A stretch of DNA of 57,530 nt from Elusimicrobiota bacterium (GTDB lineage: Bacteria > Elusimicrobiota > UBA8919): positions 1-57,530 of the forward strand of contig JBFLWK010000003.1 of assembly GCA_040757695.1 (NCBI GenBank), in the 5' to 3' direction. The notes under the pieces are model-generated. The model saw nothing but the letters and a program-made list of their open reading frames with translations, was not told the DNA's origin and did no database searches. Position 1 is the stretch's first letter, and each line of letters opens with the position of its first letter. Positions 1 through 57,530 of the stretch are shown here, piece by piece. The position numbers and the translations under genes are program-made.

Positions 1-1332
1 TTTTTCGTCAAGTTTCTGTTTGGCTAATTCTATTTTCCTTTTTGCTTCTTCGTGATTCGGGTCAAGTTTTAGTACCTCTTGCCAGCCGGCAATTGCAAGT
101 TCATATTCACCTTTCTGGAAATGCTTGAATGCGGATTCATAATGCAGTTTCATTAGCGCTTGTCGTCGTTCCGGCGTTAATTCCGGTACTTCTACCGGTG
201 TTTCTTCAACAGCAGTTGGTTGTGGAGCGGGTGGTGGTGGCGGTGGTAGAATTTCAGCCGGTTTTTCTTCTGCAGGTTTTTCTCTTTTTCCCCTTTCCCT
301 TTTCACTTTAACCTGCTTTTCTGCCGGTTCCCCCCCTTGTCTGAATGTTAACGATAGTCGATGACTGCCTGAAGTATCCGCAAGTTGTAAAGGCCACAAA
401 AACGCATAATCCAGTTGGATACCGATATTTAGTATTACTTTATTGAAGGAGAACCCAGCGGTAATTTCACGGTCGCTTCCACCCAACCGTGCTGAATATG
501 TATGTTTACTAAACCATGTTTCTAACCCACCGGCAATTTTCATATCGGCAACATTATTTTCCGGTTTTCTGTATGAGAAATCTACTGTAGGTATAATATC
601 TTCAACAAATTTCCATTTCTCAATTTTGTAAGCGAGCCCTGCACGGTATTCTTGTGGTACAAAATCTTTATGATACAAGCCGACATCTGCTTTCACAAGA
701 TTTTTTACTGCTAACCCGATAGCGAGCCGTTCTGAAAAAGGCAACAGCAGAATCCCGATATCAGTCGTGAATGCACCTGCTGATGCCCCGTTTGCAAACA
801 CGGGGTCATTCAGCGATTTTGTTCGTTCATCTAACATATATTTATGTAGCAGATATTTTATTGAGACCCCGCCAAGTATTGGGAAAGGTGGCTCTTTATC
901 CCAGAAAAATGGCGCAGTATCGTTCGCATATCCAAGCGCAAAGGTATCCTCGCGATAAAGTGCCGAAAGATAAGTATCGTTGATATTCAGCCCGAACGAA
1001 CCGCTATTATCAGTTGGATAAACAAAACCTGTATGCATCTGCCCGAGATTGATATTATCAAGCCCTAAAAATAATTTGTTATACATAAATGTACCTTCAA
1101 GCGATTGGACATGTGCAATACCTGCAGGATTGAACGACATACCGCTTGCATCGTCAGCGACTGCAGTGAATGCGTTTGCGATACCGCCTGCACGGGCACC
1201 CCAGCCGGAATCTTTAAATGCAGGGTGTAGGGGGTAGGGGGTAGGGAGTAGCAAAATCAAAAACAATAAAGGCAGGGTGTAGGGTGTAGGGAGTAGGGTG
1301 TAGTAAAATAATAATCTAATAAATTTGTTCAT
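1..1332 (-). CDS. PorV/UPF0164-like outer-membrane barrel with TPR tail (3' end outside window)
   Basis: 444 codons are open from ATG at 1332 to the window edge with no stop, so the C-terminus is missing. After a hydrophobic leader the mature protein starts near AFKDSGWGARAGG and continues with NPAGI, the start typical of PorV/UPF0164 barrels. Roughly residues 45-340 are short amphipathic strands rich in Gly/Tyr/Phe. A Lys/Glu/Pro-rich linker with a run of prolines follows (about 345-375), then one TPR-like helix pair with the motif FQKGEYELAIAGWQEVLKLD. By analogy with PorV it should sit in the outer membrane and receive proteins carrying a type IX-like C-terminal domain; its upstream neighbour, the giant secreted protein, has one. 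The leader peptide is encoded by tandem heptamers, which is odd. A close relative of the barrel lies at the other window edge. Family assignment is good; the shuttle role is inferred. Confidence 0.8.
   Translation of the reverse strand, partial: MNKFIRLLFYYTLLPTPYTLPLLFLILLLPTPYPLHPAFKDSGWGARAGGIANAFTAVADDASGMSFNPAGIAHVQSLEGTFMYNKLFLGLDNINLGQMHTGFVYPTDNSGSFGLNINDTYLSALYREDTFALGYANDTAPFFWDKEPPFPILGGVSIKYLLHKYMLDERTKSLNDPVFANGASAGAFTTDIGILLLPFSERLAIGLAVKNLVKADVGLYHKDFVPQEYRAGLAYKIEKWKFVEDIIPTVDFSYRKPENNVADMKIAGGLETWFSKHTYSARLGGSDREITAGFSFNKVILNIGIQLDYAFLWPLQLADTSGSHRLSLTFRQGGEPAEKQVKVKRERGKREKPAEEKPAEILPPPPPPAPQPTAVEETPVEVPELTPERRQALMKLHYESAFKHFQKGEYELAIAGWQEVLKLDPNHEEAKRKIELAKQKLDEK
1222..1303. 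repeat. Tandem heptamer repeat (GGGTGTA type) inside the PorV leader
   Basis: Two blocks (1222-1251 and 1273-1303) of GGGTGTA/GGGGGTA/GGGAGTA units encode, on the minus strand, the Leu/Pro/Tyr-rich signal peptide of the barrel gene (YTLLPTPYTLPLL then LLLPTPYPLHP). A change of one unit would shift the reading frame. Confidence 0.9.
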
Positions 1333-1611
1333 ATATTTTTTCTCTTTTTGATTGAAATAATTAGTGAGTTTAACATTTTTGAAATTTCTTGACAACTACT
1401 ATACAAAAAATTGTAAATACTCACCTGCATGTTGTCTTCTATAACCTTCTGCTATATTAGATGGTATAGAAACCGCTGCTCTTCGTAGTTGCGAACTAAT
1501 CCCATAGATTTCTGATTTTGGAAAATTCATTGTTATTTTATACACTGACACCGTTAATTTATATGCCTTCTGCCAAACTATTAAATCCTGATAACTTTTT
1601 AACTGCTCCAT
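1329..1611 (-). pseudogene. Broken four-helix-bundle (23S rRNA intervening-sequence type) gene
   Basis: The first 70 codons (1611 down to a stop at 1399) match the N-terminal half of the S23/four-helix-bundle family: YQDLIVWQKAYKL, then SSQLRRAAVSIPSNIAEGY. Family members are usually about 115-125 residues. Past the stop, another frame gives QEISKMLNSLIISIKK, the usual C-terminal helix of the same family, ending in a TGA that overlaps the ATG of the downstream barrel gene. The gene has therefore lost roughly 30 internal codons and its frame. Tandem GGTGTAG-type heptamers flank it on both sides (1615-1643 and, inside the next gene, 1222-1303). It sits between the giant secreted protein and its barrel partner, so it is probably an insertion that has decayed. 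Confidence 0.7.
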
Positions 1612-1614
1612 TTT

Positions 1615-1643
1615 CTACACCCTACACCCTACACCCTACACCC
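1615..1643. repeat. Tandem heptamer repeat CTACACC, four units
   Basis: Four units of CTACACC lie between the stop of the giant gene and the start of the four-helix-bundle remnant. It is the same unit family as the repeat inside the barrel leader. Confidence 0.9.
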
Positions 1644-1650
1644 TTTTGTT

Positions 1651-4600
1651 TTATTTCGCTACCACTACTGCACCTGTATTCACCTTGCCGGTTACCGTTT
1701 CTACACGGTAGATATAGATGCCACTTTCTACCGGATTACCATCGTCATCTCTACCATTCCAAGATGCTACATCGTTTAGTGTTCTTATTTTCTTGCCGGT
1801 AATATCGTAAAGTTCTATCTTTTTGATTTCTGTCTGGGCTTGGAAATTGAGCGTCTCAGTTCCTACAGGACCTATATTATCAGGTGTTAAGAATTTTTCT
1901 TTTGCCTCAGGTTTCTCAGGCAAGATACCCACTGGGAACAGTGCATAATATGTGAAATGATTGATTGCTGCAGTGATTGTATTATTTGTAGTATTGACCT
2001 TTCCGCCAACATACCGCCATTCTAACCCATCGTAGTAATAGAGTCGCAAATTAGATTCCTGAAGCCCTGTAGATGTGCCATCTATTTTTTCAACAATACC
2101 GTTATTATCAACATCAAAATACAACAGTGACAGCATTGCTGGTTTCTTGAATACAACGGATGGTGTGAACTCAAACACGCAGACCGGCTTACCACCTGCG
2201 GCACGCCACGATGCTGCGATTTCTATTTCTTTTTTAGCCCACGGAACAATTATCTCGTTAGGATTATACTGTTTGATTTTTATTTCCGTTTTATTACCAT
2301 CAGTGAACTGGACAGAAACCGCACCATCTAATCCATTCCCATCTGGCACAGTAATACCGCCTGTTGCAGTTGGCGTAGTTTCATACTCGGTGTTTACATC
2401 AACATTGTATGCGGTTGTTGACGAAATAGTAGTCGGTGTGTTGTACTGCAAGAATGTAGTATCGCCACCGCTACCCGCAATCACGCCATTACCTGCGACA
2501 TCTTTTACTTCTATATAGTACTCAATTGCAGTAGTTGTAGTGATTCTTGCGGTTTGGAATGACAGAGTAGATACTGTTTTGGCACCAACAGAATAACTAC
2601 CACTAACGAGTGTTGCCCAGCGCCATGTTGTCTCATCTGCTAATCTGTAGCGGACATTCACAGTTGAGATACCGGTATCGTATTGACTGCCGGTATTATC
2701 CGCGACTGATAGCTGGATTACCAGCACATCACCTAACAGCCGAATAGTTGTTGGGGTTGTTCTTGCGGTGATTGTTGGCGGCGTCATATCAGGCGAGAGT
2801 GCCAGTGTTGACGACCAACTGCTTTCAAGTGCGGTTGGTGTTGTTTTATCGCGTGCTTTCAGCCGATAGTAGTACCACCAGTATGGCTGTGCTGAGATAT
2901 TGGAAGTAAATGATGTTGCGGTAGTAGTAGAGCCAATAGGATTCCAAGCAGGTGAGGCAGTATAGCCGCTGTGAGCCGCATACTGAACCTCGTAATTCAG
3001 AATATCCAACTCTGGATTAGGATTCCATCTTGTTGTAATTGAGGTCGCAGTTCGTGTGAATGGCGACGAAGTCCAAGTAGGCGACGACGGATTCGTATTG
3101 AATGCGACTGCAGACGAAGTTGACGAGACCATAGACAGATTCCCAGTTGAATCCTGTGTTTTTAGTGCAACATAATAGGTTCTATCCGGATAAAGCCCTG
3201 TAATAGCTTGTGTCTCAATACTACCGGGCGATTTAGTAACTTGAAGCCAGCGGGTGCCTTTTTGCGGGTTTGTACTGCTATCCCAGTCAACCGATGGAAT
3301 AGAATCCCACCATGTATTATCAGATACTACTGGATATGTTGCATATTTTACAAGGTATTTTCCTTTATTAACAAGCGAGCCCGTCATACCATCGTCACCG
3401 GGTGCAGTCCATCTGAGATTGATATAGCCCTCTATATTTGAGCCAGATGCTACAAAATCGGTTGTCCTTGCTGGCGGTGCACTATCGTTCTTATATCCTT
3501 TTGTAGGATAACTGTAGACATACCAATCGTTTCTTGAATAGCCGGTATCATCAATATCAGTTGGAGAAGCATCTCTGCCTAATGATTTCGTTGCTGTAGC
3601 AGCAGACCAATCCGCGGCAGCAGCTGCGGTTTTAGTTGCGGGATACCACTGATGGAATGCGACTGCATCCGCCCAGAGACTGTCCCAGTCGGCTTTTTGT
3701 CCTTGTGAATACGCTACGAAATCAACCATATTGCCATCTGCATCTTCTAAATACAGAATACCTTCATATCCTCGTAGGTCATATGAGCCATAGACATCAA
3801 GATAGCCGTTATTATTTGAGTCAATAGTGGTTTCATCAACTGCGGCAGCAGAGGAACTGAAATTGACAACTAAATAACTACCAACTGGCAACCATACATT
3901 CGGGAATGTTTTTAGAACTGCTGGGGAATCACTGCCGGATTCTAACCCGTAAAGTTTCCAGTTCATCAATGTGACACTGGAAGTATAGGCGTTGTATATC
4001 TCTACCCAGTCATTACCATTTCCTACAAGTGGTGCAAGTTCGTTTATTCGGATATACGAGCCAACCCGTGAAGATGCGGCACCGAAGCCAACGTTAGACA
4101 TTATTGCAAGATTCGGCTGTTCATCTTCGGTTTTGAGTGCAAAATAATATGTAGCACCTGGTGTAAGTTTACCAACATATTTAATTTCAGTTTTGTTAGG
4201 TGCTGATGGTGTCCAGGTATTGTTCCAATCTGTTACATTATCAAAACTAATATCGGTTATATTTGTCGGGCTATATTTTAACACATAGCCACTGGCGGTA
4301 TTGGAACGGTTATCATCACCGACAGATGTCCATGTTAGTTTCACACTACCTCTATTTATACCTTGTGAGACAGAAAGCGTTGTGACCTGTGCAGGCGGTA
4401 CTGTATCAGGCACACGATTTTTTTGACCCGGTGTAGGCGAACCCGGTGTCGGTGAGGCTGAAATATGCCATTCTGATTGTGCAGGATTTGTGCCATCAGT
4501 AGAATTATCATCACGGCTGAGTGAACGGTTTCTGGTGATATATTTTACATTAGCACAGTTATTCATAACATCGGTATCGTTACTACCGGTAGCAAGCGGA

Positions 4601-7600
4601 CCTGTCCACTCTACTGCTGTAACTGCAGCATTATACAACGCTCTGAAATCGGTTGACCCTGAAATAGAGCCACTGGTATCAGAATAACAGACTGCATCTA
4701 ATAGAGTGCCTGCAGATGAAACAATCACTATTACATCATCAGAATCAGTGAGTCCTGACTTATCCGTATAGACCTCGTAATAACTTGTCCCTTTTAATAC
4801 CGGCACTGTCATATTTCGTGTGGATTGGTTGAATCTTAATACTAAATAATACTTTCCAGGTAGCGGCCAATCGCCTTCAAATGTCTCAAACGGCGTAGTA
4901 GATGAGTAGTAGGACTCATAAAACTGCAAGCCCTGTAAATTAACTCCACTACTGTTTGGATTATAAATCTCAAGCCAGTCATTGCCGTCGGAAGAATATT
5001 GGGACGGAGCAATTTCGTTGATACGAAGTGTAGAGCCTACACTGCCTGATTTGGCAGTTGCAGATGCTTGGGTTTTATTCACGGTTTTAGTATCTAACTC
5101 GGAGATATTGCCGGACGCATCTTTTGTCCGGATTGCAAAGTAGTAAGTAATACCGGGGTTCAAGTTTAATATTTTAGTTTCTGTAACACCGAGATTGCTT
5201 ACAGACCAGTCCTGATAGTAGGTGACCGCATTACTCCACCATGCATTTGTAGATACAGAACTGGTTACTGGATATGTAGCATATTTCACAATATATCGGG
5301 CACCGCCTGTATTATTTCCGGAAGCACCATCGTTACCCGGCGCAGTCCATTGTAACTGCACAGTACCAGCGATGGTAGTTCCGGTTTGTGCTACTAAGTC
5401 ATTTATTGCAGACGGCGGTATTGTATCCAACCCGTTAGTATTGACTGGTGATGGATACAAGTTTTCTACAAAATCATTATAATTGTTATTTGTATCTATA
5501 CCATCCGGCGAACGCGTTAATGAACTTCCAGAGGCACTTTCTGGTGCTGCAGAACCTCCTTCTGCCAGCGGGTCTGATTCATAACCTTCATAGCCGACAG
5601 TATCCATCACATCACCATTAGAATGTTTCAGCCGAATACCGCAAGTTGCAGAATTATACATTGTAGCAGATACAGAATAAGTAGAGTCAACAGTGACATA
5701 TTGAATTGTATCCTGCTGTCCTAACAAGAAATAGCCGTTTGGCGAGATTGTACCTGATGGGATACTAAGCAGTTCTTTCGGTGCTGACCAGTCCGTATTG
5801 TTTGTTTTTTCTATTCGCCAGCCTGCGAGATTTATAGTTGATGCAGACAGATTATAGAGTTCCAGCCATTCGTTGCCTTCATCAGTGCCTGACGGGTCGT
5901 ATACGAACTCGTTAATTACTACTTTATCCATTTTCGGCTGTGTAGCGGCGATATTAGAGAGCCCGGATGAGTTAGGGGGGGGAGCATCGTCTAACACTTT
6001 CATTGCAAAATAATAATTGATATCCACTGGCAGCCGAACCGTTAGTGTCTGAGTTAACCCAGCGGGCAGTGGCTCCGGGATATCAGTCAGTTTAGTTGCC
6101 GTGTTGAACTGTGTATCATTAACTATTTCCTGCACGGTAGAATATCTGATATCGTATTTGGATGCGATACCGGTATTCCAATCATCGCCTGTAGCAGTCC
6201 ATGTAAGTAACACCTCGCCATGCGAAGACCCTTCTGCTGCAACGAGGTCGTTGATTGTAGATGGTGGTGTTGTATCCGCGCCAATACCGGTTTGAACCGG
6301 CCCGTATTGAACCAACCCGGACTCGTTACCTGATTTGTCCATCACAAGCACTGCGATATAATAATTTGAGCCATCTACAAGTGCTGTACCTTGACAGGTG
6401 GTTAAGACGCAGCCGGTACCTGCTACATTAGTAATCACTTTTTCAGGAATCAGTGTCCCATCCCATTGCAAATCTGCGTCAGTAATTGCTGAGCCGGCTT
6501 TTACAAACACATAATATCTTGAAAAATCGGCTGCAGTAGAACTGCTCCATGAAACATTGATTGCACCACTATTAGAGCCTGCTGCGGATAGCACTGCGAT
6601 ATTTGATGGTGATGTAGTATCCGGTGCTGGATTTTCTGCTGTATTTTCATCAGTAGTAAGTTCATAAATCCGTTTCTGATATTTGATATACTGTCTTGCC
6701 AGTCGGCGGTCGTAAATAATGAACTGGTTTTCATCATTCTCGGTATCTGCACGTGGTGTCCAGTTGAAACTGCCGGAAACGATTATATCTTTATCAATCA
6801 CTATCAATTTAGAATGCATAATTGCACCGGTCGGATTATCATCTTTGCGGACATTCCAACCTGCCAAATCCCAATCACCGTAAGGGCAGCCACTCATACT
6901 GGCTTGACTGCGGTCAAACACACCTTGAACCACCAGCCCGCGGTTTTTAGCACCTGAAATTGCACCTTCTATAGTATCATCAGTAAATGTAAAAATATCA
7001 AAGAAGACAGATTCCTTTGCAGTACCAACTAATGAGGCGAGCCCGTTTGCAGTCTGTGCATCCGGCGAGAACCTGATATCTATCGGCACTGTGCGGTCTG
7101 GCAAATTCACAGTTGTAGATATTGACGAGACCCGTCCTGCATAATTGTAGTATTTTTTATATTCTTTGAAATAGCCCCACCACATCGCTTCAAACTCTTT
7201 TTGATACACTGCCGCAACATTTGTAGAATGGATAATCACGCAATCGTTATCCTGTGGCTGCAGTCCATCAACTGTATAGTTAACAGAGCCGGTTTCTACA
7301 GACCTGCCATCTACAACAATAAACTTATGGTGCATTATTGGGCTATCAATCTGGGCAGAACACCATTTAACATTCTGACTCAACTGGCTTGGCAGGGTCG
7401 GGTTAGACGATAATGTGTATGGGTCTACAATTAACCGGACAACCACACCGAGATTCGCTTTAGTATTTAACGCATTTATAATATCACTATTGATAAACGT
7501 ATAGATACTCACATAGATGTATTCCTGGGCACTATTGATAAGATTCAGGAGTTCGTTTTTCAGCTGACTTGTGCCTGCAATTGTTGCAGGTGTGAAATAT

Positions 7601-10600
7601 GATTTTATATCTTCTGACAATGGCACTGCTGCACCAGGCCAGTTATAGTCCGGCTCTTTGGGGCTTTGAGAACTATGCGGTCTGCGAACTGACTGGCTTG
7701 AGAAGTCAACTGAATTATTATCAGTATCTACAATCGCACCATTCGGGCTACCGGGTTTTCGGTAGAAACTGCCAAGTGCTGGAATATCCGTAACTGAAAA
7801 TGATGAAATCGGTGTGCCTTCATAAAGCTCAGTATCCGAAGAGGCAATCACACCAAAACTAACACGGTCTATCGTGATTTCTGCACTATCTGTTATCTGC
7901 CAGGTAGCGCCGGTATCATTCGCACCTGATGTAAACTCAGCATCAGGCACAATCTTCCACTTGAAATCACTATGTGCAAACAGATAGAACCCATTACTTT
8001 CAATAATTTTGCCAGATGGCACAGTCGCTCTTGTATAATAGCCAGTGCCACTGTTATATTGCAATTTCCAGCCGCTTATATTCATATCCTCATTTGTCGG
8101 ATTATAAAGTTCCACAAACTCATCACTACCGCTATCAGGTCCTTCAAATGCAAACTGGCTAATTACAATATGTTCAGCACCAGTGATAGTCCGGGTAGCA
8201 TCAGAAGTAACATAATCTGTTGCAAGCCCATCCTGATTATACGCCCAGATACGGAACCAGTATGAAGTAGATGGCAGCAGTCCTGTAACATCTGCGGTGT
8301 TAGCCACAAAATTATCGGTATAAGTTATAAATGTAGTAATGCTGACTACAAAATTGTCAGTAGAGCGAGATATACCATACCTTGTGCCTTCTGGATTGTT
8401 ATTGGGTAAAAAAGTAAATGTGATTTCGTTATGTGTGATATTGGTGAAACTGATTGTTGTCGGTGGGTTAGCAAGTGTAGATTTTGTCGCAGTATTAGAC
8501 GCAGAACTCTCACCAACTGCATTGTATGATTTTACATACGCTGAATATGTAGTATTGATTAACAGCCCTGAGGTCTGTGTCCAGGAAGTAATACCAGCAC
8601 CGACTGTGCCTGATAATCCGCCGGTAGAATTATAAATACGGAAACCGGTTTCACCAATAGAGACATCCTGCCACGACCACTGGATACTCGTGGTTGATAA
8701 TGCGACACCGGTAAAGTTCTGCGGTGGTGCCGGCGCAGTAAGCGTTGGTGGGCTTGTGGTAGGTCCTAATAGCGCACTGTTTAATACACTCGGGTCTGTA
8801 TCATAGACACTGATATAGAAATAGTAGGTTGCATTTTCAGATACTGATAACTGGTGCGAAGTACCCGGATATAGCACATTTGTGATTAAGTTCGGGTCAG
8901 CGACCGCACCACCTGTAGTTGTAGAATACAATGCATAATAACTGATATCGCCCGGGTCTGGTGATGGCGGTTCCCATCTTATATCTACTTTAGATATTGA
9001 CGACCGATATATTGTGAAATTGGTAGCGACATCAGGGTTCAAATCCTGCGCATAACCTGTTGCTGCGTTAGAGATTGCAGAGTAATTACTGACTTCATCT
9101 ATCGCCCAGATACGGAAATAATAGGTTGACGCGGGGACAAGTCCTGCGACTACATAATTTACATATGTATTTGGTACAATACCAGAAGTTGAGATATTTA
9201 CTTGTGCATTAGCAGTTGACCATACAACAGGTGTATAACTTGAGTACTGAATCGTATAAGAGCCGTTCAGCACACCATAATAACCATTATCATCATTAGT
9301 AGTTGTCCAGGCTAGTTTTACAGCGCCATCCGTTGTGCCAGGTTGTGCCGCAAGATTAGTAATTGCATCCGGTGAAATATCGTCATTTGCTCTGCCTTTG
9401 GTTGGGTTTAAGAATGTTTTCCAATCGTTTCTACTTGTGCCTGTGACATCGTCACTATCTACGGAATCAATATTTCTGCCAAAAGAAACGCCGTGCGCAC
9501 CACTAGACCAGTTAAACGCATCTGAAACCAAGCCGCCTGCAGGCGACCACTGATGATATTGTACTGCACCAAGATAACCTGCCTCAGTTGCCCAGATACG
9601 GCTCCAGTCAACCGCATCACCACCTGAATATGCAACAAAGTCAACTATCGTACCACCATTATCACGTAACGCAACTACACCTTCAAACCCACGTAAATCA
9701 ACTGATGCGTATACATCCCACCAGCCATTCTCACCTTTATCTGATGTCTCATCGGCAGCAGTAATATTCAAATTAAGCACTAAATACTCGCCAGCACCAA
9801 TGGTGATGTTGGGTATTGTTTCTTTGATTGTAGATTCTCTATAATCACCTGCTTTTATAGCAACAACTGACCAGTTATTTATATTGATTGATTGGTTTGT
9901 AGCGTTATAAAACTCTATCCAGTCCTGCCCGTTTGATTGAAGTGGTGCGACTTCATTTATCCGAATATTTGAGCCAACAATCGCAGATGCAGATGAAGAA
10001 ACCACATTTGAGATTAGAGAACTATTACCTTGCTCATCTTCTGTTTTTATAGCAATATAACAGACCGCACCGGGCAGCAAAGTACCAACCGTATAACTTT
10101 CATTAGTTCCAGGTGAACCAGGCGGCCAAACGATATCATTAGATATATTATCACGAGACGCACTTTCATAATTTGTTGCATTATCCCAGTCATAATCATT
10201 ATTGATTGGGTTTAAAGAATATCTAACCATATAGCCACTTGCTGTATTGGCAGTCCCATCCTCTGCTACCGCGGTCCATTGAAGTTTGATAGTACCGCGG
10301 TTTTCACCAACAGTGCAGACCAGGTTAGTAATCTGTGCAGGCACAACCGTATCAGGAACCCAGTTTTGAGTACCTCTTGTAGGGTCGCCCGGTGTAGGTG
10401 CGGCTGAAACATGCCATTCTGCACTTGAAGGGCTTGTCCCATCAGTTGATTTTTCATCTCTACTAAGTGAATAGTTACGGGCATAGTACCGATAGTTTAC
10501 AGCATCAATATCACCATCAACAACAGCATACCACTGGTTATTATTGGCTATCGCAAAATCATATGCGTCATCGAACTTATCTGAAATATCTTCATTACAA

Positions 10601-13600
10601 TTGCTATAAAATAGTGCATCAATCCAAGTTCCTGAATTGTTTTGTAGTATTATTCCACTACTGCCGGAGGTGCCTGTTCCGGGGCCTGTCAGCCCAGGGC
10701 AATCAGTTGCAATCTCATAACTATTCTCGTTGATTTGAACCGGGTTAGACATATTTCTTGTGCGGTTGAACCTCAACACCAAATATGAACCAACTGGAAA
10801 ATTCCAGTTCCCTTCAAATTTTTCAAACGGTGTACTCGTGCTGTCATAAATCTCGTATATTTTCCAACCATATATATCGGGCGTAGTAGGTCCGGGATTG
10901 TAAAACTCTATCCAATCATCACCGTCAGACGAATACTGTGAAGGTGCAACCTCATTGATAACTATCTGCCCACCAATAGTGCCTGTGGATGCTTTTGCAA
11001 ACGCCTGTGAGTAGGCAGTGGTGCCATTATCTAAATCAGAGACATTGCCCATATCATCAATAGTTCTGATACCAAAATAAAAGGTTACGCCGGGTGATAA
11101 CACAAGTATCTGCTGTTCAGAAACACCCTGATTAGCAACCGAAATTGTAGACGGATACAGTGTCGCTTGAGCCCACCAGACCTCAGAACTGCCTGTTACA
11201 ATATATGTGGAATACCGTAAATCATAATACGCAGGTGAGATATTATTGCCGGTTGTATCATCATCACCGGGCGCAGTCCATCTAACAATTATTTCACCAG
11301 GATTGATACCAGTTAATGCAGACAAATTGGTGATTGCTGATGGTGGTATGTTATCAATCCCACTATATGTTGAATTTCTTGGGCTTCTATCACCAGCAGA
11401 TTTAACTGTAAAGTCGTTAAAATTATTATCAGTATCCTGACTGTTTCCATTTATTGTATCATCCGGTTCTCTAACCAAACAATTTCCTGAACCCGGTGCC
11501 GATACTGCGGCGCCTTCAGGGTCAACAGCACTGCCATATCCTATTTTGTCAATTTCAATACTTAAATTGTCTGTTATTCTTACATGACCTGAACTATCAC
11601 TAAAACCTAACGAAGTAGCGGTTTTGATATCTACTGCAACACCTTCAATTGTATCTGCGGCTGCAATCAAATAATATCTTTTTGAATTTATAGATGTTCC
11701 AGCCGGGATGGTTATTTTATTAGACCAACTCCCACCACCGCCTGTTTGATACTGGACTACCCAGTTGCTTATATCAATACTACTATCAGTCGGGTTAAAC
11801 AGTTCTACGGATTCGCCGGGGGTAGAATTAACTGCCAGCCGACTTATCACTATATGGTCTGCGGGCGTAGTATCAGGCTGGGTCTCTGCAACTGCAAGGT
11901 TAGAGCGACTGGACCAGTTATTCACATCATCACGGACTTTTAGCACAAAATAATACTGTGTGCCGTTGTTTAATCCAGCAACTTCAAAAGTTTGTTTCTG
12001 CCCGCTAAATAATGGTGTCGGGGGAAACGCGACAGCAGTTGCATTGATAAAATCTGATTCAGTCATTATCGGATTAATAGAATACCTGATATTATATGCA
12101 GATGCTAACCCAAACGAGCCATCATCACCTGTACAGGTCCATTCTAATAGTATCGTGCCTAATGTACTGCCGGTATATGCGACAAGGTCTAATATCTGTG
12201 CTGGCGGTGTGATATCGGCTCCACCAGAAGTAACAGGACCGAATACCGAGCCGGATGCAAGTGTGGACTCGTTGCCCCATTTATCAGCCGCGGTAATTGC
12301 AATCCAGTATGAGTTCCCATCTATCAACTGCGCACCACCACAGGTTGTCAGTTGCGTACCTGTTAGTGTAATATTGTTGATTGCTGCTTCCGGTATTATT
12401 TTGCCATCAATCCCGCCACCCTGTCCTTCGTCTACATAGCCATTGCCATCATCATCAGTTGCGTTTGCAAAATAGGTTGTATTACCAAATGGCTCAGTGC
12501 TTGAAATAAACACATAGTATTTTGAGAAGCCACTATCACCTGTTCCACCGGAATATGTATTCCAATTAACAGAGATAGACCCCGGCCCGGACGGTGTCGC
12601 CGAGGAACCGGTAACAGAGAGTGGTGCAGTGACATCAGCAGGTGGATTATTTTCGCCAATACCTAATGTATAAACCCGTTTGAAATACTTTACATACTGG
12701 CGTGCAAGCCGTGCATCATCTATTATAACCATATTTTCATCATTTGAAGAAGATGCATTGTTTGATAAATTAGTAGAACCCGTTACCACTTTTTGCTGGT
12801 CTATAACCATTAGTTTGTTGTGGAGTTGAACTTCGCTACCAGGTCCTGATAGATATCTTATAGTTATCCCTGCGGTATTAAAATCATTATAGAGTGTATC
12901 GGATTGAGTATCATCTATTATTCCCTGTACTGCACGACCGTTGTTAAATGCGGTTTGAACATCATTATCCAAAAGCGTACCTACACTGAAACTGTATACC
13001 GCGAAGAAAATACTTTCTTGCGCATTCTGGACAAGTGAACGCAGTGTTGTATTTACCGGGTTGTTTTGTGGTGAATAATAATTTTGTATGGATGTCCCAG
13101 CGATAGTTAGATTTGTTGTTGGTGAGGTCTGCTTGTATGCGCCGAAATAGCCCCACCACATCTGCTTGAACTCAGCTTCATAATTTTTAGCTAATGTAGT
13201 TGACTGAACTACCATAAAATCATTATTCTGGCTGGTTAATGCACGGTAAGTTGGTGGCTGAACACTATCAAAATTGCCAGAACCAGTCCATACAATGCGG
13301 CCATCAACTACCACGAACTTTGAATGCATAAGATAACTGAACTCGTAAGGTCGCCATTTCACTTTGGAACCTGCAAAATTGGTTTGCGCAAATGATATAG
13401 CAGCATTACCGGCAACCACTCGGACAGTAATGCCGGCAGCTGCCCTGTTTTTCAGTGCGGTTGCTATCTCGGTATCATCCTGCTGATAAATCGCTACATA
13501 GATATAACTCTGTGCAGAATTGATTAAGTTTAAGAGCGATTGTTTTGCCTCACTATTGGTAGGTCCGATGGCTGTATATGTTGGAGTATTGAAATATGAT

Positions 13601-16600
13601 TTTACCCTTTCTGTAAGTGCTGCTAATGGAGAAGGCCAGTTTGTATCCGGCTCTACAGGGCTGTTTGTGTTTCGTGGAATACGGCGTGTCCGATTATAGA
13701 AATCAGTCGCATTATTATTTGTATCGTAATTGTTACCTGACGGGTTACCAGGCTTGCGTTCAAGCGAGCCAGAAGCGGTTGCTTGAACTGCGGTAGCACT
13801 AAGTTCAGGCGCTGAGGCAGTTCCCCAGCCAACCCTATCAATTTCATTCCCGGAAGAATCCAGAAGGCGCCAGTGCCCGCCAGTATCCGCAGTATCAAAA
13901 TAGTATGTACAGTTTTTAACTACACTGGCTGCAAAACCGGTTGATGCAAACAGATAATAACTGCCTGTAGAAAGCGTGATACCCGCAGGGACTGTTGAAA
14001 CATTCGTTGTCCAATCAATACCATCAGCAGAATACTGCACAACCCAACTGGAAATACTGACCGCGGCTGCAGATGAATTATAAATTTCTACAAACTCGTC
14101 AGTAGAACCATTAGCACCTTTGGTTGTAAACTGGCTAATCACGATATGTGGCGGTATTGTGTGAGGTACAGTGCTGATAGTTGTTGAATAGACACTTACA
14201 TGGCCGGTATAATCACCTGCAGTTATTTTGTAATAATATGTGGCGCCATTTTGAAGCCCTGTATGGATATACGGACTACTTATTGTAGACGCGGTAGGTG
14301 TTGTGCCGATAACAAACCAACTAACAGTATCCGGTGGCTGACTATCACAATAGATTGTGTAGGATGAAATATCCAGTTCGGTATTAGCAGTCCACCAGAG
14401 CTGGATTTCAGTATCACCCGCAAGTACTGATAAGCCCTGTGGCTGTGATGGTATCAAGTCCTGTGCAGATGCATATGCAGATGTATTTACCGTCGGAACA
14501 TCCGCAGACGAGTTCCATACAGACCAGTTGTTGTTGTCATCCTGTGCCTTGATTGCGAACCAGTAACTTGTGCCAGGTGTTAAATTGTAAAATGTTGTTG
14601 TGCAGGCAGTTAAAGGTGTTAATGAAGTTGTTGAAATATCTACAACTGTTGCAAATGTTGAGGATGTATTTGTAAAATTAGCCGATGTAACTATCCCAAC
14701 AGACGAATAATTTATGCGGAAAGTGCCGGTTAAATTGCCGACGGTTCCATCATCACCAGGTGCCGTCCAGTTCAAAATAATTGAACCCTCAAGCAATCCT
14801 GTTAATCCTGTCAAATTGGAAATCGCTGCAGGTTGCATACTGTCCAGATTAGGATAGTTTGCATAACCCGGTGTTGAAGATGGTGTGATTGCAAAATCGG
14901 TATACGAATCGGTATCAGTTGAATTTATATCACGCCCTGTAGTGGTTGTTGCGGTAATTGTTGAGATATTGATACAGGCAGCTTGCACGGTTGCATCATC
15001 ACCGGTTCCACCTGTCCCATCTGCAACAGCACCTGTCCAGGCAGTTGAACTTAACGCAGTATTGTAGTTGCCTTCAAAAGCTGTTGTCGTCTCTCCATCT
15101 CTATCAGAATAGCAGACACCATCTACCCAAGTATCATCGCCTGCAGGTATCTTTATTGATAGCACCTCATCAGTAGCGACCAGCCCTGTATCTGTTGTAT
15201 AAAAATCCCAATATCCGTTCCCATTTGTATCGCCAGTAGTATCATCTTCATCCGCAGTAGACGAACTGAACCAGATAACTATGTAATCGCCTGTTGCAGG
15301 ATTGAACGACCCTGGAAATGCTTTTCTTAATGTTGAGCCCTCAAAAAATCTGTAGCCAGAATAATTTCCACCTGCTGTGACACATATTTCTACCCAATCA
15401 TATCCGCCTGTTACCGCAGGTGCGATTTCGTTTATTAGTAAATTAGCCGCAGCAGGTGGTGGAGCGGTTGTAGAACTTGAATTTACATCACTGTAATAGT
15501 TTGTGGGGATACCGGCACCGTTATATGCCCAGACACGAAACCAGTATGTTGTGTTAGCAGATAGCAGATAGCAGATAGTAGTAGCTGCTGTAAGACCACT
15601 GGCATAATTTATAAATGTAATCTCATTCCCAAATCCTGGTTCTGTGGAACGGGAAAGCCCGTATCGTGTTCCATCAGGATTTGTATTCGCAGACCAATTA
15701 AGATTTATTGATGAGGAATCGTTTGTGGTTGCTACAAAATCAGTCGGTGCTACTGCGAGCGTATAAGTAGAAACTGTGGAAGTCCACGAGGCACCATAAG
15801 TGTTGGTCGCACCTGCACAGACAGTATATTGTGTATTAGTTGATAGATTGAGTTGCCACCAACTTGTTGTCCCACCTGATACCGGTACTGTAATTGAACC
15901 TAAACCTACCCAGTAATTAGACGGCCAAGTTCCTGTCGCTATAAAAAGTCCATCTTCGTTATTTGCATTGTCTTGAAACCGCCATACTACTGAACTTGTG
16001 AATACCTGATAGGCGGTTAAATTGCTGGGTGCGAATGGTGGACCTGCATATGGTATCGTGTTAATAATTGTAGAATATGCGCTTTCGTGGCCTGTTTTAT
16101 CAACCGCAGTCATTCTATAAACATGGCTGGTGCCGTTTTGTAAGCCAGTATCATAAAAAGTAGTAAATGTATAAGGTGTTGTGCCGGGACTTAACTCATC
16201 AGCAAAATCGTACGGGTCTGAAGTATCGCGGTATATTTTGTAGTAATTCAAATCCGTCTCGGAATTAGCAGTCCAGGAAAGTTGTATCTGCGTATCACCT
16301 GCAAGTGCTGTAAAATTTGAAGGTGCGGCAGGTGTTAAATCCTGTGCAGATGCGTAAGCAGAAGTGTTCACAGTTAAAACATCAAACGACGAGTTCCAGA
16401 CTGACCAAAGCTCTGCATCATCCTGTGTCTTGAGCGCGAACCAGTAAGATGTTCCTGGTGTTAAATTGCAAAATGTTGTTGTGCAGGCAGTTAAAGGTGC
16501 TAATGAAGTTGTTGAAATATCTACAACGGTTGCGAATGTTGAGGATGTATTCGTAAAATTGGCTGCTGTAACTATCCCAACAGACGAGTAATTTATGCGG

Positions 16601-19600
16601 AAAGTGCCGGTTAAATTGCCGACGGTTCCATCATCGCCAGGCGCAGTCCAGTTAAGCACGATAGAACTTTCTGTAATACCTGCCAGTGCGGTTAAGTTAG
16701 AAATTCCAGCCGGTTTACTTTGGTCGGTTACTGTATAGACACTATTTACTTTTCCTGGTGTGCCCCAACTGGGGTCAACAATTGAAGTTGACAATGTACA
16801 ACTACTCCAGTTAACATCATTATCACTACCAACTAGGTCAATTTTTTCTAATGTAATACCATTAGAAGCAGGACCCCAACTAGATAAAAATGTTACACTG
16901 CTAATAAGAGTTCCACCAACAGCAGTACTTAAATAAATGGTGTCACCGGTATCTGTGATAGACATACTATTAGTATCAAAATATGTAACACCACTTAAAT
17001 CATATCCGTATCCAGCACCACTGAATAATGCTGCACTTTCAGCCGCAACAATATAAGAATTAGCATATATTGTTGTACCATTAGGAATTGTTATATCATT
17101 ATTACCATCATTAATAATCCAGCCTGATAGGTGTATATCATTCCCTGTATTATTATACAATTCTATCCACTCACCATTTGTATCGCCGAGCGCGGTAGGA
17201 GCATCATGCATTATCTCATTTATTACAACATCGCCGAGTGAAGGTGTGTAAACTGGTACAGGTGCGGTTGCACTGCTGGTTGTAATATATGCGGTTTCTA
17301 TCTGGTCACCGTTGTATGCCCAGACACGGAACCAGTAGGTAGTATTCGCAGATAAATCATACACGGTTGTTGTGTTACCGATAAGTCCTGCTGCAAAGTT
17401 ATAGGCAGTTGTAGATACATAGAAATCTGTAGCAGTTGCATAACTTACACCGTATTTCGTTGCGGGGGCTGGATTATCGTTAACATCCCATGTAAGATTT
17501 ATTGATGAGGAATTATTGGTAGTCGCAGCAGGATTTGTTGGCGGTGCGGCTGCAGTAGAACTGGTAATTGATACAGACCAACTGCTACCTGCTATATTAA
17601 ATGCCTCTGCATATCTTGTACATGGTGTATTAGTTCCGAGATTTATTTCCCACCAACTTGTTGTTCCCGTCCCGCTTAAAGGTCCAAGATTTTCTGAAAG
17701 ACGGGTATAATCGCCGGATGAAACATATAATCCCGTTTCGTTTGTTGCGTTATCTGTGAATGTCCATTGGATTGATGAAACGTACACAGCGGTCGGACGT
17801 AAATTGCTCGGAGCGGTGGGTGGACCGACTTTTGTCATCGTGCTGTCTTGAATGTATGCGGTCTGTATCTGGTCTTCATTGAAAGCAACTATTCTGAACC
17901 AGTATGTTGAATCAGCGGTTAGATTAAATACCGTTGTATTATCTGCGGTAAGATTTTGGGCAAAGGTTACAGCAGTTGAAACACTTACACCATAACACTC
18001 AGGATTGCTTGAAATAATCACGCCATATCTTGTCCAGGCGGGATTGATTGTTGAATTATGAGACCAATTAACTGTAACGGATGAATAACCCACAAATGTG
18101 AATGTAGAAACAGCGGGTAATGGTGGTGCTGCAAGTGTATAGGTTGTTGCGGCATTTGACAACGGGCTTTCACCGGCAGTGTTTGTGGCGACAACTACTC
18201 TGTAATATGATGTATTCGCTATAAGATTGCTCTCAGTCCAGTTGACAACATCAGTATTAAGTGATGGTGATGCTGGATTGCCAGACGGCGAAGTTGTGTA
18301 TCTCACTCGGTAGCCACTTTCACCCGCTACATTGTTCCACGACCACTGAATTGAATAGGTTGATAAAGCGACACCTGTAAAGCCCGTCGGTGCATCCGGT
18401 GGGTTTTCAAAAGAGATAGTTGACGCTGCAATGTTAACACTTGCTACATCAGCAGACGAATTCCATACAGACCAGTTGCCAGCATTATCGCAAGTTTTTA
18501 TCGCAAACCAGTATGTTGTATAAGTATTCAAATTATAAAATGTAGTTGTCTGAAAAGTCAGTGCTGATGTTTGAGTTGAAATATCTACGACTGTCGCAAA
18601 AGTAGAAGAAGTATTTGTAAAATTAGCCGATGTAACTATGCCAACTGATGAATAGTTTATTCTGAACAAACTGCCAGACCGAAGATAATCGGAATTCTCA
18701 TTATCGCCAGGCGAAGTCCATTCAAGTTTTATAGAACCAAGCACGCTACCAGCGAGTGCAGTTAAGTTAGAAATCCCAGCAGGTGCTTTATTATCAAACC
18801 CGAGTTTTGCAGTACCACCGATACCCAGCGTTGTAGCAGTTGACGAAGTATAGCCACTGCCATCTTCAGACCAGACACGCCACCAGTATGTGCCATTGTC
18901 AGTAAGTTGTGGCCATTGATATCCGGTTGTTCCCTGTGGAATTAACGCAGATGTGTAATCAACAAATTTGTATATGAATGTAGAATCAGACGAGACCTGT
19001 AAATGAAATTTTAAGTCGTTTGCTGGAACAGGTCCTGATTGCGTAAACGAAGAAATTATTATTGACGAATTCGTCCATTGCATTGAATATAATGTAGTTG
19101 CAAGCCCTTGGCTTGCTAATTGTGTCAGTCCTGAAGGTAAATAGGGCTTGATAGCAGAAACATAACAGTATGCAGATGTATTCACAGTTAAATCATCAGC
19201 GGTTGATTTCCATACAGACCAGTTTGACGATTCATCAACAGTTTTGATAGCAAACCAGTATGTAGTATTCAGGTTCAAGTTAAAAAATGTTGTTGTCTGG
19301 TAAGAAAGCGCAGTAGTTGCAGTTGATATATCAACCACATTTGCGAATGTTGAAGTTGTATTTGTAAAATTAGCAGATGTAACTATCCCAACAGACGAAT
19401 AATTTAGCTTGAAACTGCTGCCCGAGATAAGGTCACCGGTATCGCCGTTATCTCCAGGTGATGTCCATTCCAATTTTACCTGTCCTTCGTTTGTTGTAGA
19501 CGCAATCGCGGTCAGATTTGAGATTGGTGATGGTGGTGTGGAGTCAACTAAAGACCTCAAAATACACATATCAAACGACTGGCGGTCTGAAAGCGAGTTT

Positions 19601-31935: not shown

Positions 31936-32050
31936 ATTGAGATTCTTTTCCCGATATTCATCGGGGTCAGAATGACCCCATTGTGTCATGTTGAGCGTCA
32001 GCGAAACATCTCGCTTTTTAAGATTCTTCGGTTTCACCTCAGAATGACTT
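31936..32050. repeat. Dispersed repeat region between the NHL and PorV-CsgG genes
   Basis: Contains the palindrome CCCGATATTCATCGGG (31950-31965), a TGTCATGTTGAGCG ... GCGAAACATCTC segment and an AGATTCTTCGG ... CTCAGAATGAC segment, all of types that recur in repeat-rich bacterial genomes. Not protein coding in my view. Confidence 0.6.
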
Positions 32051-32057: not shown

Positions 32058-33254
32058 CTATTTAACCACACCGACTTTTGCTCGTTTTGTGTATTCATCA
32101 GTTTTTATAGAAATAATGTACAATCCGGATTTTGCACCACTTCCATCCCAGTATTCAACATAGTCACCTGCGTCACAATATCCATCAAGAATTTCTTTTA
32201 CAAGGTCTCCTGCAATATCATAAACCCTTATCAAAACATTGCTCCCATTATTCAGATGATAATAAATCTGTGCTTTTTCACTTTTATTTGGATAAAAAAG
32301 ATTTTTTCCAACAAAAAACTTTTCTTTTTTCAAACTCTGTACTTTAGAAATTGGAATGAACTTTACTACTTTATTAGAACTAACCACATAGATATTATTG
32401 AACGAATCCATAGCAATTCCAGATAGGGAGTATAAACAATCAAATTGGGAGATGAAATTCCCAGTAGAATCAAATTTCTGGATACGATAATTACCACTAT
32501 CTGCTACATAAACATTACCGGAAGAATCAACTGCAATGCCGCTTGGATAGTTAAACTGCCCATCGCCATTTCCATAACTGCCCCATTTGAGTATAAAATT
32601 TCCGTTTGAGTCAAATTTTTGAATCCTCTTATTCCCAGAATCAGCAATATAAACATTGTTTGAAGAATCGCAGACAATACCTTTAGGATAGGAAAACTGT
32701 CCGTCTCCGCTTCCATTACTGCCCCATTTAAGAATGAAGTTTCCATTTGAATCAAACTTTTTGATACGATATTGATATGTATATTCCGCATCTATTACAT
32801 AAATACTACCCGAAGAATCAACTGCAATTGAACTTATTTGATTAAACAGACCATTACCACCCCAACCATAACTTCCAAATTGGAAAATAAAATTCCCATT
32901 AGAATCAAATTTTTGGATACGATAATTACCACTATCTGCTACATAAACATTACCTGATGAATCGATAGCAATACCTGATGGATACTTTAATTGTCCATCA
33001 CTATTGCCATAACTTCCAAATTTAAGTATAAAGTTCCCGTTAGAATCAAATTTCTGAATACGATGGTTATATCTTTCCACAACATAGATATTATTAAAAG
33101 AATCAATAGCAATCCCAGAAGGTGAATCAAACTGACCATCAGCACCGCCATAACTTCCCCATTCTTTAGCAAGTGTATAATTATCAGCCCGAGTTGTAGC
33201 TGGTATTACTAAAATTAAAAACAAGATACCAAGAACTATACCAATTTTTTTCAT
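32058..33254 (-). CDS. Secreted NHL-repeat protein with FlgD/type IX-like C-terminal domain
   Basis: 398 residues. A signal peptide (about 1-23) is followed by six NHL repeats of about 46 residues, with the recurring phrases PSGIAIDSSGNVYVADSG and RIQKFDSNGNFI, predicting a six-bladed propeller. From about residue 335 the C-terminus reads IRVYDIAGDLVKE, YWDGSG and SGLYIISIKT, ending VGVVK, very like the C-termini of the giant protein and the right-edge FN3 protein. Probably surface-exposed and exported by a type IX-like route with the PorV-CsgG neighbour. Ligand unknown. The propeller repeats are also similar at DNA level. Confidence 0.88.
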   Translation of the reverse strand: MKKIGIVLGILFLILVIPATTRADNYTLAKEWGSYGGADGQFDSPSGIAIDSFNNIYVVERYNHRIQKFDSNGNFILKFGSYGNSDGQLKYPSGIAIDSSGNVYVADSGNYRIQKFDSNGNFIFQFGSYGWGGNGLFNQISSIAVDSSGSIYVIDAEYTYQYRIKKFDSNGNFILKWGSNGSGDGQFSYPKGIVCDSSNNVYIADSGNKRIQKFDSNGNFILKWGSYGNGDGQFNYPSGIAVDSSGNVYVADSGNYRIQKFDSTGNFISQFDCLYSLSGIAMDSFNNIYVVSSNKVVKFIPISKVQSLKKEKFFVGKNLFYPNKSEKAQIYYHLNNGSNVLIRVYDIAGDLVKEILDGYCDAGDYVEYWDGSGAKSGLYIISIKTDEYTKRAKVGVVK

Positions 33255-52195: not shown

Positions 52196-52198
52196 TTT

Positions 52199-54039: not shown

Positions 54040-54050
54040 TATATCATTTC

Positions 54051-54079: not shown

Positions 54080-54128
54080 TAAAAAAAATCCTTATATAGA
54101 TTTTTAATCGGTTATATGTGTCTGTATC

Positions 54129-54592: not shown

Positions 54593-54617
54593 TTTTTTTC
54601 TCCTTAGAAAATTATTA

Positions 54618-54845: not shown

Positions 54846-54863
54846 TGTGACGATAATAACGGG

Positions 54864-56177
54864 TTATTCTACTGTAATTTTCTCTTTTAATGCATGATAT
54901 GTCTTTTCTGGTATTTCTCTCACTCTTTGTGGAAGTTCTTTTATTTTCTTAAATGGTTTCATTTTCCTGTATCTTATTATCATCCTTGCTTGAATTGTAT
55001 TGAATCCAACTTTGATAAGTTGTTCTTCTGATGCTGTGTTAATATTCACCTTTGTAACTTGATAATGTGCAGCACTCGCTTTTTCTGTTGCATTAGTAGA
55101 TGTTGTAGTCGGTAGTGAAGGTATGGTTCTTTTCGGTTCAGGTACTGGTGGGATGATTCCAGTTGTTTTGATTTCTGGTTTTGTTGGAATTGAAGTTAAC
55201 GAAATAGAAAGCCGATGTGACCCGAAATTATCACCGATAGCAAAAGACCAGAGAAATGCGTAATCTAACCGTATCAAATATTTCCCGACTCCTTGATTGA
55301 ATGAAGTACCAAAACCGGCTTCTTGTTTGTTTGCACCGCCACGGAATGCAAATCTTTTTTCAGAAAACCAGTGTTCTAAACCACCGTGCAGATTTAACTT
55401 GTCGCTCACAACACCCCATTGTTGATTCCTGTATGAAACATCCAGCCCAACAGTTGTATTTTTGTATCTATATGCAGAACCTAATCGCAACTCTGAAGGC
55501 ACTTTATCTTCAAAATACAAGCCAACATCCGGCTGGGTTAAATTCAGACCTGCAAGCCCGAAAGAAAAATTCTTTATATTGCAAAGAAAACCTATATCGC
55601 CTGTAAATGCCGATTTTGAAGAACCTGCAAGTATAACAGGGTCGTTGTATTCTTCTGCTCTTTTTATTGTATCAGAATCCCAGTTGTATTTATGATATAA
55701 AAATTTAGCATTTATTCCAAATGAAAGATTTACATTATTTCTTTCTTTTTCTTTATTTTTTTGGCTTGTAAAAATCTTTCTTGAATATGAAAGAATGGCT
55801 GTGTTCTCTTTATACAAACTATTTCCATAGTCATTAACTCCTAACCCAAATGTACCAATCTTTTCTATAGGTTGCGTGTAGGAAACTGACACAAGCCCTA
55901 AATCTATATTTTTCAAACCGAGATATGGCTTCGCATACATAAACCCAACATCAGAAAAAACTGGATACACGATACCAGCTGGATTATAAAATATCGCAGA
56001 AGAATCGTCAGAAATAGCACAAAAAGTGCCACCCATCCCAACCGCACGGGTTGACCAACCGGAATTTTTAAATGCAGGAAACGCAGATAACCGCAGATAA
56101 AAAACACAAATGACCACAGATAAAAAAATCTGTGCTAATCTGTGTTTAAAAATCTGTGTTAATCTGTGTCTACTCAT
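54864..56177 (-). CDS. PorV/UPF0164-like barrel fused to a ComEA-like helix-hairpin-helix tail
   Basis: 437 residues. After the leader the mature start AFKNSGWSTRAVGMGG and the NPAGI motif match the left-edge barrel closely, and the strand-rich barrel runs to about 330. A Pro/Thr-rich linker (about 335-375) leads to VNINTASEEQLIKVGF ... ARMIIRYRKMKPFKKIKEL, a ComEA-type double helix-hairpin-helix. Both hairpins lack the usual GIG (VGFNT and VREIP instead), so DNA binding is doubtful. The ATG overlaps the stop of the FN3 protein upstream (ATGA). Likely outer-membrane partner of that secreted protein. Confidence 0.82.
   Translation of the reverse strand: MSRHRLTQIFKHRLAQIFLSVVICVFYLRLSAFPAFKNSGWSTRAVGMGGTFCAISDDSSAIFYNPAGIVYPVFSDVGFMYAKPYLGLKNIDLGLVSVSYTQPIEKIGTFGLGVNDYGNSLYKENTAILSYSRKIFTSQKNKEKERNNVNLSFGINAKFLYHKYNWDSDTIKRAEEYNDPVILAGSSKSAFTGDIGFLCNIKNFSFGLAGLNLTQPDVGLYFEDKVPSELRLGSAYRYKNTTVGLDVSYRNQQWGVVSDKLNLHGGLEHWFSEKRFAFRGGANKQEAGFGTSFNQGVGKYLIRLDYAFLWSFAIGDNFGSHRLSISLTSIPTKPEIKTTGIIPPVPEPKRTIPSLPTTTSTNATEKASAAHYQVTKVNINTASEEQLIKVGFNTIQARMIIRYRKMKPFKKIKELPQRVREIPEKTYHALKEKITVE
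56078..56172. repeat. Tandem and inverted CACAGATTA-type repeats encoding the barrel leader
   Basis: CACAGATTAA/CACAGATTTT units and their inverse ATCTGTG/ATCTGCG encode the first 30 or so residues of the PorV-helix-hairpin-helix protein (HRLTQIFKHRLAQIFL and the hydrophobic VVICVFYLRL). Confidence 0.85.
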
Positions 56178-57530
56178 TTTGCAACCACAATCGTTCCGTA
56201 TTCTGTTTTTCCATCAGTTGTCTTTATCTTAAAGATATATATTCCCGACTCAACCTTTTTATTATTTTCATCTGTTCCATTCCAAGTAATCACACTACCA
56301 TAAAAATTCGCTTTAGAAAGTTTTATAACTTCAACTCCAGAGGCATCATAAATACTGACTTCTTCTGCTTTTTCACCAAATGTTGCAGGTGTGAATACGG
56401 TAATAAATTTTTCTTCCGGGACAGCTTTTTCAGAAGTTCTACTTTTTGCAAACAAAGCATATTTACCCGGTTTGTTAACTCTTATTGTAAAAGTATTTCG
56501 CTCATAGTCAGGTTTACCACCAATAAATCTCCATCGCACACCATCCCAAAAATATACAGAGAGCTCAGTTTCGCTAATATCAGTTACTTGTCCATATTCC
56601 GTTTCAACAAGTCCGTCATTATTTATATCGAAATAAAGTAATGTTATGTAAAACAGTTTTTCAAAAACTGCTGTATTAGTTATACCAAAAGTATATGTTA
56701 CTATAGGATGCAAATTGTTTTTATTTGCAATTTCCTCTATACCAAAAGAGTTTTCTAATAAAGAATCTTTTTGCTCGATACTAATTGTTAGATCCAAAAA
56801 GTCTGAAAATTGAATCTTCGTAGAACCATCGTCAGGGTTCCCATCTAATGCTTCAACAACAAATTGTGAATCCGGTTTCTTTTCACAAATCCTACTAACA
56901 GAAACCGTATATATAGAAGTCGTAGAGATATTTACGCCATCTGATGCAGTTATAAAATATTCTAAACCTACTGTTGTTATTGCAGAAACAGGAATCATAC
57001 CATATCCTGAATATGTATTAGTTGATGGCAGAGGAACGAAATCTGAAAAACTAAAACTGGTTTCTCCGTTTTTTCTAAAATAAATTCTTACATAATCTAT
57101 ACATCGGTCGTCAACTACATCAGCAGAAATTGTAATAATATCACCAATAATATTTACTTCTGTAATTGATGGTGTATACGAAATAGTAGGCGGGATAGTA
57201 TCACTCGGCGGTATTGGTGGAGGCTCTGCTTCAGATGATAAAGTCATAGTGGTTATTGTGAGGTCGTAGTTGGTTGCAAGACCATCCTCATTAAATGCTT
57301 GAACCTTGAACCAATAAGATGTAAGAGGCAAGAGGTCAGAAGCAAGATAAGAAGTGGTTGTGTAGTTGTCTGAAAATGTCTTGAGTGTTGTTGTGCTGGT
57401 CACAAAATTATCTGTAGACCGCAAGATACCCCATCTTGTATAGTCAGGATTGTTGTTGTTTGACCACTGAACGCTGATTGACGCAGATGTAACGCTGATT
57501 ACCGCAGATAATGTTGGTGGGTTTGCAAGT
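56174..57530 (-). CDS. Secreted FN3 protein with FlgD/type IX-like C-terminal domain (5' end outside window)
   Basis: 452 codons are open to the right edge, so the N-terminus is missing. It begins in an FN3 module very like one near residue 4150 of the giant protein (LANPPT ... RSTDNF ... TSYWFKVQAFNEDGLAT). A further Ig-like domain (PTISYTPSITEV...), a strand-rich region (YFDINNDGLVE, WRFIGGK, matching the giant protein's YFDVNNNGIVE and WRYVGGK) and the C-terminal domain follow: VSIYDASGVEV, WNGTDENN, ESGIYIFKI, ending VVAK. The last 200-plus residues are thus homologous to the giant's C-terminus. The PorV gene follows with a 4-bp overlap. One FN3 strand is encoded by ATCAGCG/ATCTGCG repeats. 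Confidence 0.88.
   Translation of the reverse strand, partial: LANPPTLSAVISVTSASISVQWSNNNNPDYTRWGILRSTDNFVTSTTTLKTFSDNYTTTSYLASDLLPLTSYWFKVQAFNEDGLATNYDLTITTMTLSSEAEPPPIPPSDTIPPTISYTPSITEVNIIGDIITISADVVDDRCIDYVRIYFRKNGETSFSFSDFVPLPSTNTYSGYGMIPVSAITTVGLEYFITASDGVNISTTSIYTVSVSRICEKKPDSQFVVEALDGNPDDGSTKIQFSDFLDLTISIEQKDSLLENSFGIEEIANKNNLHPIVTYTFGITNTAVFEKLFYITLLYFDINNDGLVETEYGQVTDISETELSVYFWDGVRWRFIGGKPDYERNTFTIRVNKPGKYALFAKSRTSEKAVPEEKFITVFTPATFGEKAEEVSIYDASGVEVIKLSKANFYGSVITWNGTDENNKKVESGIYIFKIKTTDGKTEYGTIVVAK

Follow-up and report, generated by a model that had tools for sequence, protein, structure and literature searches.

The stretch of DNA considered here, hereafter the window, comprises 57,530 nt of contig JBFLWK010000003.1 and belongs to a 2.89 Mb metagenome-assembled genome of an Elusimicrobiota bacterium of the UBA8919 lineage (assembly GCA_040757695.1). 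As detailed in Table 1, it carries three gene pairs, all on the minus strand; in each of them, a gene for a cargo protein with a C-terminal domain (CTD) of the type IX secretion kind is followed by a gene for a PorV-family outer-membrane barrel. The sequence-only reading of the window had proposed these three pairs, with TPR, CsgG and helix-hairpin-helix (HHH) domains fused to the respective barrels, and all were found at the places that it gave. The motifs it described at the cargo C-termini are likewise shared, save in the FN3 cargo, whose last residues are IVVAK instead of V(V/G)VxK. The cargo and barrel genes are separated by 255 bp in the left pair and by 20 bp in the middle one, and they overlap by 4 bp in the right one. 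Two genes are cut by the edges: the left barrel-TPR frame reaches the contig end without a stop codon, and the FN3 cargo, an open frame of ~493 aa, runs on past the right edge. A near copy of the former gene lies at the end of another contig (C10, locus L095, 18135-19265; 94% in the tail). Comparison with this copy suggests that the left-edge frame is short by only ~5 residues; the copy itself reflects either a duplication or an assembly junction.

Table 1. Genes of the three cargo-barrel pairs, with positions in the window
Feature	Position	Strand	Domains and remarks
PorV/PorP-like outer-membrane barrel with TPR tail (P0001)	1..1395	-	barrel ~340-1227; TPR ~10-153; runs off contig end
6,468-aa cargo	1651..21057	-	lamin-tail, FN3 and PLD-like domains; C-terminal type IX CTD ~1675-1863
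PorV-family barrel with C-terminal CsgG/LpoB-like domain (P0002)	30598..32037	-	barrel ~31066-31926; CsgG ~30601-30993
398-aa NHL-propeller cargo	32058..33254	-	type A-like CTD ~32061-32312
PorV/PorP-like barrel with HHH_3/ComEA-like tail (P0004)	54864..56177	-	barrel ~55197-56126; HHH_3 ~54873-55055
FN3 cargo	56174..57529	-	CTD 56186-56386; continues past window edge

The three cargo tails were all above the 23-bit cut-off of the type A CTD model TIGR04183, with scores of 24.8 (left), 24.3 (middle) and 26.2 bits (right); cargos P0005 and P0006 gave weak type B CTD scores too. The barrels were less uniform. Only P0002, at 90.4 bits, passed the 90-bit cut-off of the PorV family model NF033709, P0001 and P0004 being at 42 and 59.8 bits; these two also matched PorP/SprF (31 bits for P0001 with PorP_SprF, 41.6 bits for P0004 with the PorP_SprF Pfam model). 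The tail of P0004 matched HHH_3 at 45 bits. Over the whole genome, no barrel reached the PorP_SprF cut-off (TIGR03519, 90.55 bits; the best was at 53.5 bits), and a single CTD, C17:26085 with 39 bits, passed that of the type B model (TIGR04131, 35 bits). The pairs may thus work like PorP/SprF but are not classed as PorP/SprF, because their scores are below the family cut-offs.

A profile built from 34 of the barrels and compared with the Protein Data Bank ranked PorV from the SprA translocon structure 6h3i first, at 6e-38, FadL/TodX being at 0.005 or worse. The AlphaFold2 model of P0002 shows 14 strands within residues 97-324 and, after them, a distinct domain. When searched with Foldseek, its barrel had as top matches PorV in 8gl6 (8gl6_F) and in 6h3i (6h3i_F), and its tail had LpoB. 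The CTD profile retrieved PorZ, PorU, gingipain and translocon-bound substrate CTDs, and also FlgD; the modelled CTD forms a sandwich of seven strands (pLDDT 90.5) whose fold matches are generic Ig-like domains, the PorZ and RemA CTDs among them.

To establish how general the arrangement is, CTDs and PorV-family barrels were searched independently across the genome and adjacency was scored on the stretches around the matches. The searches yielded 50 genes for CTDs and 53 for barrels; one more barrel (C10:60135), found afterwards, brings the latter to ~54. The 23-bit CTD cut-off was passed by the three window cargos and ~34 others, the NF033709 cut-off by P0002 and ~30 paralogues. For 41 of the 53 barrels, the gene immediately upstream on the same strand is one with a CTD, against ~0.44 expected by chance, with a median gap between paired genes of ~63 bp and a 4-bp overlap in eight pairs; C31 has an additional pair in the reverse order. 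The proposal of one linked barrel per cargo thus holds for the genome, and it extends to relatives: of 66 barrels sampled from ten further genomes of the phylum, 49 have a CTD gene at most 1 kb upstream. The number of PorV-family matches per genome goes from 12 to 53 within the same family and, in the rest of the phylum, from 1 to 21. A scan of genome contigs with the barrel-CsgG protein as query found no relatives; the SprA alignment did, and those bearing names are Elusimicrobiota. Most large secreted surface proteins of this bacterium appear to be given a private outer-membrane carrier barrel.

The same figures bear on a quite different explanation, in which the barrels would be FadL-type channels for hydrophobic solutes that lie near secreted proteins by chance. 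It draws on the FadL superfamily fold that UPF0164 and PorV share, and a few unpaired barrels (C10:49860, C87:3094) look more FadL-like or are unassigned. The sequence-only reading had itself opposed a FadL assignment to a PorV one. This opposition is ill-posed, PorV and PorP being both members of the 14-strand FadL family (PMC9143113), but PorV and FadL proper can be told apart, and the comparison favours PorV. Since the profile, the fold search and the linkage to CTD genes all go against a transporter of the FadL type, we rejected this explanation as highly improbable.

Two other cargos of the genome deserve mention. C1 (L085, 15765-20000 and further) has an open frame of 18,641 aa with a CTD at its end and a TPR-tailed barrel gene behind it; the product would be a giant surface protein served by the same kind of pair. 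On C55 (L108, 8722-11616), a C25 peptidase of the gingipain/PorU family, with FN3, CarboxypepD_reg and CTD domains, has its own TPR-tailed barrel.

That barrels and CTDs have diversified together is seen in their trees. For the 38 complete pairs of the genome, the Mantel correlation (Spearman) was 0.52, against a maximum of 0.31 in 2,000 permutations, and the nearest neighbours agreed in 15 pairs. For 87 pairs drawn from several genomes, it was 0.46 (permutation maximum 0.23), with agreement of nearest neighbours in 48. This fits cognate pairing of barrel and CTD. The duplication of whole cassettes, without any specificity, could equally give co-diversification, and it is on this point that the main competing explanation is built. 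According to it, the PorV paralogues are interchangeable, any barrel carries any type A-like cargo, and linkage reflects cassette duplication or dosage matching. A single PorV does serve all type A CTDs in Flavobacterium, with some crosstalk of type B carriers (PMC12618676). Eight CTD genes of the genome have no adjacent barrel, so that some carriers are probably shared, and several untailed barrels (on C57, C80 and C82) have no neighbouring cargo. Yet shared use does not account for the retention of ~50 private copies where one would suffice, and tree agreement survives the removal of close paralogues (r of 0.30 for a best permutation of 0.18). Moreover, sub-types tend to match: PorP-like barrels occur with CHU_C/type B-like CTDs on C17 and C3, and those of a tailed PorP-like sub-group (C17, C3, C1) with type B-like CTDs. 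Overall, we regard non-specific carriers as unlikely, though not negligibly so.

About half of the carriers are more than a barrel. In the genome, ~25 of them have C-terminal tails of 84-325 aa and ~22 stop at the last strand. The domains found in the tails, singly or combined, are TPR, CsgG/LpoB-like, LysM (on three barrels), CarboxypepD_reg, HHH_3 and coiled coil; in one relative (G011, L248), the tail consists of two FN3 domains and an OmpA domain (79.6 bits). On the tree of 87 barrels, the tail type changes at least 28 times, which is less than after shuffling (mean 43.7, minimum 38); tails are thus inherited and yet often replaced. The CsgG-type tails have a strictly conserved GCTT(T/S)EC motif (window 30601-30993, L090, L093, L099, L115, L117), i.e. 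C-x4-C; no Cys-X-Cys of the SprF kind was seen in the tails, only this C-x4-C. That fused tails alternate with separately encoded ones was considered and rejected, a gene for a tail-type domain being next door for 6 of the 25 tailed and for only 1 of the 25 untailed barrels. There are single cases of separate tail-domain genes: C2:77719 is a CsgG gene located after an untailed barrel, and C10:56079 shares 43% identity with a portion of the C55 barrel's tail. We infer that the tails are periplasmic because both ends of a 14-strand barrel of this family lie in that compartment. The earlier suggestion that they route cargo to different partners is plausible, given the peptidoglycan-binding LysM and OmpA families among them and what the C-tail of SprF is known to do (PMC12635249).

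A homologue of the outer-membrane translocon is also encoded. A SprA homologue of 1,733 aa was detected (E-value 4.6e-45), its 153.5 bits being under the 200-bit equivalog cut-off, and SprA was matched in 19 of 21 genomes of the phylum; in the two that lack one, PorV-family matches number just 2 and 1. Of the genes that the sequence-only reading had listed, sprA is thus accounted for whereas porU was not found as such. On C46 (L124, 47-14725), the SprA gene is followed by genes for a 1,717-aa protein and a TolB-like protein and by three genes without family matches, all of which are candidates for the parts of the secretion system not otherwise found. In related Elusimicrobiota, a CTD cargo gene and a PorV-type barrel gene lie upstream of sprA (L142-L146); at the sprA locus, the barrel has a CsgG tail in L143, L144, L240, L268 and L272 and no tail in L142, L145 and L146. 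Judging from gene order and tree position, a pair on C87 (L119, 5598-8584), with an M6-peptidase-like cargo and an untailed barrel, is probably the counterpart in our genome, its contig ending before sprA. It is possible that the gene pair upstream of sprA provides a processing protease or a housekeeping carrier.

The interpretation that we favour, and which we hold to be probable though far from settled, is that of dedicated carrier-anchor pairs, which would act in the manner of SprF/PorP and in which a PorE-like tether is part of the barrel chain. The cargo would cross the outer membrane through a single SprA-like translocon. Its CTD would be captured by the neighbouring 14-strand PorV/PorP-type barrel docked at SprA, and the barrel would leave with the cargo, which would remain permanently bound to it, the barrel serving as surface anchor. 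The C-terminal tail would project into the periplasm and tie the complex to peptidoglycan (LysM, OmpA) or, in the case of TPR, CsgG/LpoB-like, CarboxypepD_reg and HHH tails, to other periplasmic partners. Where a carrier has such a fused domain, the surface protein is probably held by it to the cell wall or to another partner beneath the outer membrane, in a one-chain version of the job done in Bacteroidota by the lipoprotein PorE or by the C-tail of SprF.

Several points weigh against dedicated carrier-anchor pairs, besides the eight unaccompanied CTD genes and the effect of cassette duplication discussed above. TPR, CsgG and HHH are promiscuous families whose presence is no proof of wall binding; among the tail families, the classic binders of peptidoglycan are LysM and OmpA alone. 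The search for PorU gave no clear member, nearly all matches falling in the CTD region of that protein; the C25-peptidase cargo on C55 could be PorU-like or gingipain-like. Searches for GldL, GldM and GldN, run without a positive-control genome, gave no match. This last result would suit a second view of the tails, as regulators or energy couplers that link the carriers to other periplasmic machinery pulling them off SprA or that signal to wall synthesis in an LpoB-like way, and so would the resemblance of the CsgG tails to LpoB, an activator of penicillin-binding proteins, and the TolB-like gene near sprA. But roughly half of the carriers are tailless, so tails are no general energy requirement, and the lack of a control tempers the absence of the motor genes. 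We judge regulatory or coupling tails to be rather improbable, less so than FadL channels but more so than shared carriers.

That carriers dedicated to one cargo are without precedent, as the sequence-only reading had it, is contradicted by published work. Adhesins with a type B CTD have their cognate PorP/SprF carrier encoded directly downstream, and this carrier is thought to retain them (PMC9143113, PMC12618676); examples are SprB/SprF and Fjoh_3952/3951 in Flavobacterium johnsoniae and PG1035/PorP in Porphyromonas gingivalis. The Elusimicrobiota pairs resemble these in having the carrier gene directly downstream, one carrier per cargo and a 14-strand barrel of the FadL family, on which the cargo would likewise stay. 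They differ in that most carriers score as PorV family and most CTDs are type A-like, in number (~41 pairs against ~12 substrates), in the tails fused to about half of the carriers, and in the phylum. PorV, the general type A carrier of the 6h3i and 8gl6 structures, is similar to the barrel domain by sequence profile and fold. In Bacteroidota, however, one PorV serves all type A cargo (PMC12618676) and has no fused tail. The tails themselves recall PorE, a lipoprotein with TPR, propeller, carboxypeptidase-regulatory-like (CRD) and OmpA domains that binds peptidoglycan beside PorP and for which there are operon precedents (PMC9143113, PMC12204202, PMC12618676). In both cases TPR and CRD domains and a peptidoglycan-binding domain (here OmpA or LysM) are tied to the carrier barrel; whereas PorE is a separate lipoprotein, here the barrel itself continues at its C-terminus into these domains, whose combination varies. 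The other precedent is the periplasmic C-tail of SprF, which a disulfide joins to GldK, part of the gliding track (PMC12635249). There too, a C-terminal tail of the carrier connects a surface protein to a periplasmic structure, but SprF does so with a short tail bearing Cys-X-Cys and with GldK as the track, whereas here there are whole domains, those of CsgG type with their C-x4-C, and no GldL, GldM or GldN was found. The arrangement is real, widespread in the phylum and a variant of the cognate-carrier scheme, not a new kind of system; what is new is its scale, the pairing of PorV-type carriers with type A-like cargo, the fused and exchangeable tails, and the phylum.

A few other features were noted. 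In the window, positions 35498-37699 encode a full ComEC and 21501-22394 a stand-alone ComEC-type metallo-beta-lactamase domain; their presence together with the ComEA-like HHH tail of P0004 makes a link to DNA uptake possible. An O-antigen ligase (Wzy_C) with fused C-terminal TPR repeats is encoded at 48787-50541. On C10 (L095, 7860-9419), a 23S rRNA intervening-sequence protein domain and a FadL-like barrel share a single open frame, a feature that could reflect a frame fusion or an anomaly of the assembly.

Type IX secretion was listed in 2024 only for the phyla of the Fibrobacteres-Chlorobi-Bacteroidetes (FCB) group, its genes being stated to be absent elsewhere (PMC11285876), and a literature search that reached few subscription papers or bioRxiv preprints found no description of the system in Elusimicrobiota. 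Our results show that a phylum outside this published list has SprA, ~50 CTD proteins and ~54 PorV-type carriers organised as private pairs. A bolder view, which we put forward only as a speculation with the odds against it, is that of SprA-based secretion outside FCB which does without the GldLMN motor and in which almost all cargos have a private PorV-type carrier, the exchangeable periplasmic tails forming an address code for the site and partner of fixation and maybe also aiding extraction of carrier and cargo from the translocon. If dedicated carrier-anchor pairs are indeed at work, the choice of carrier and the tail domain would specify the final place of a surface protein; and because tether and carrier are in one chain, the attachment of an adhesin to the wall becomes directly testable.

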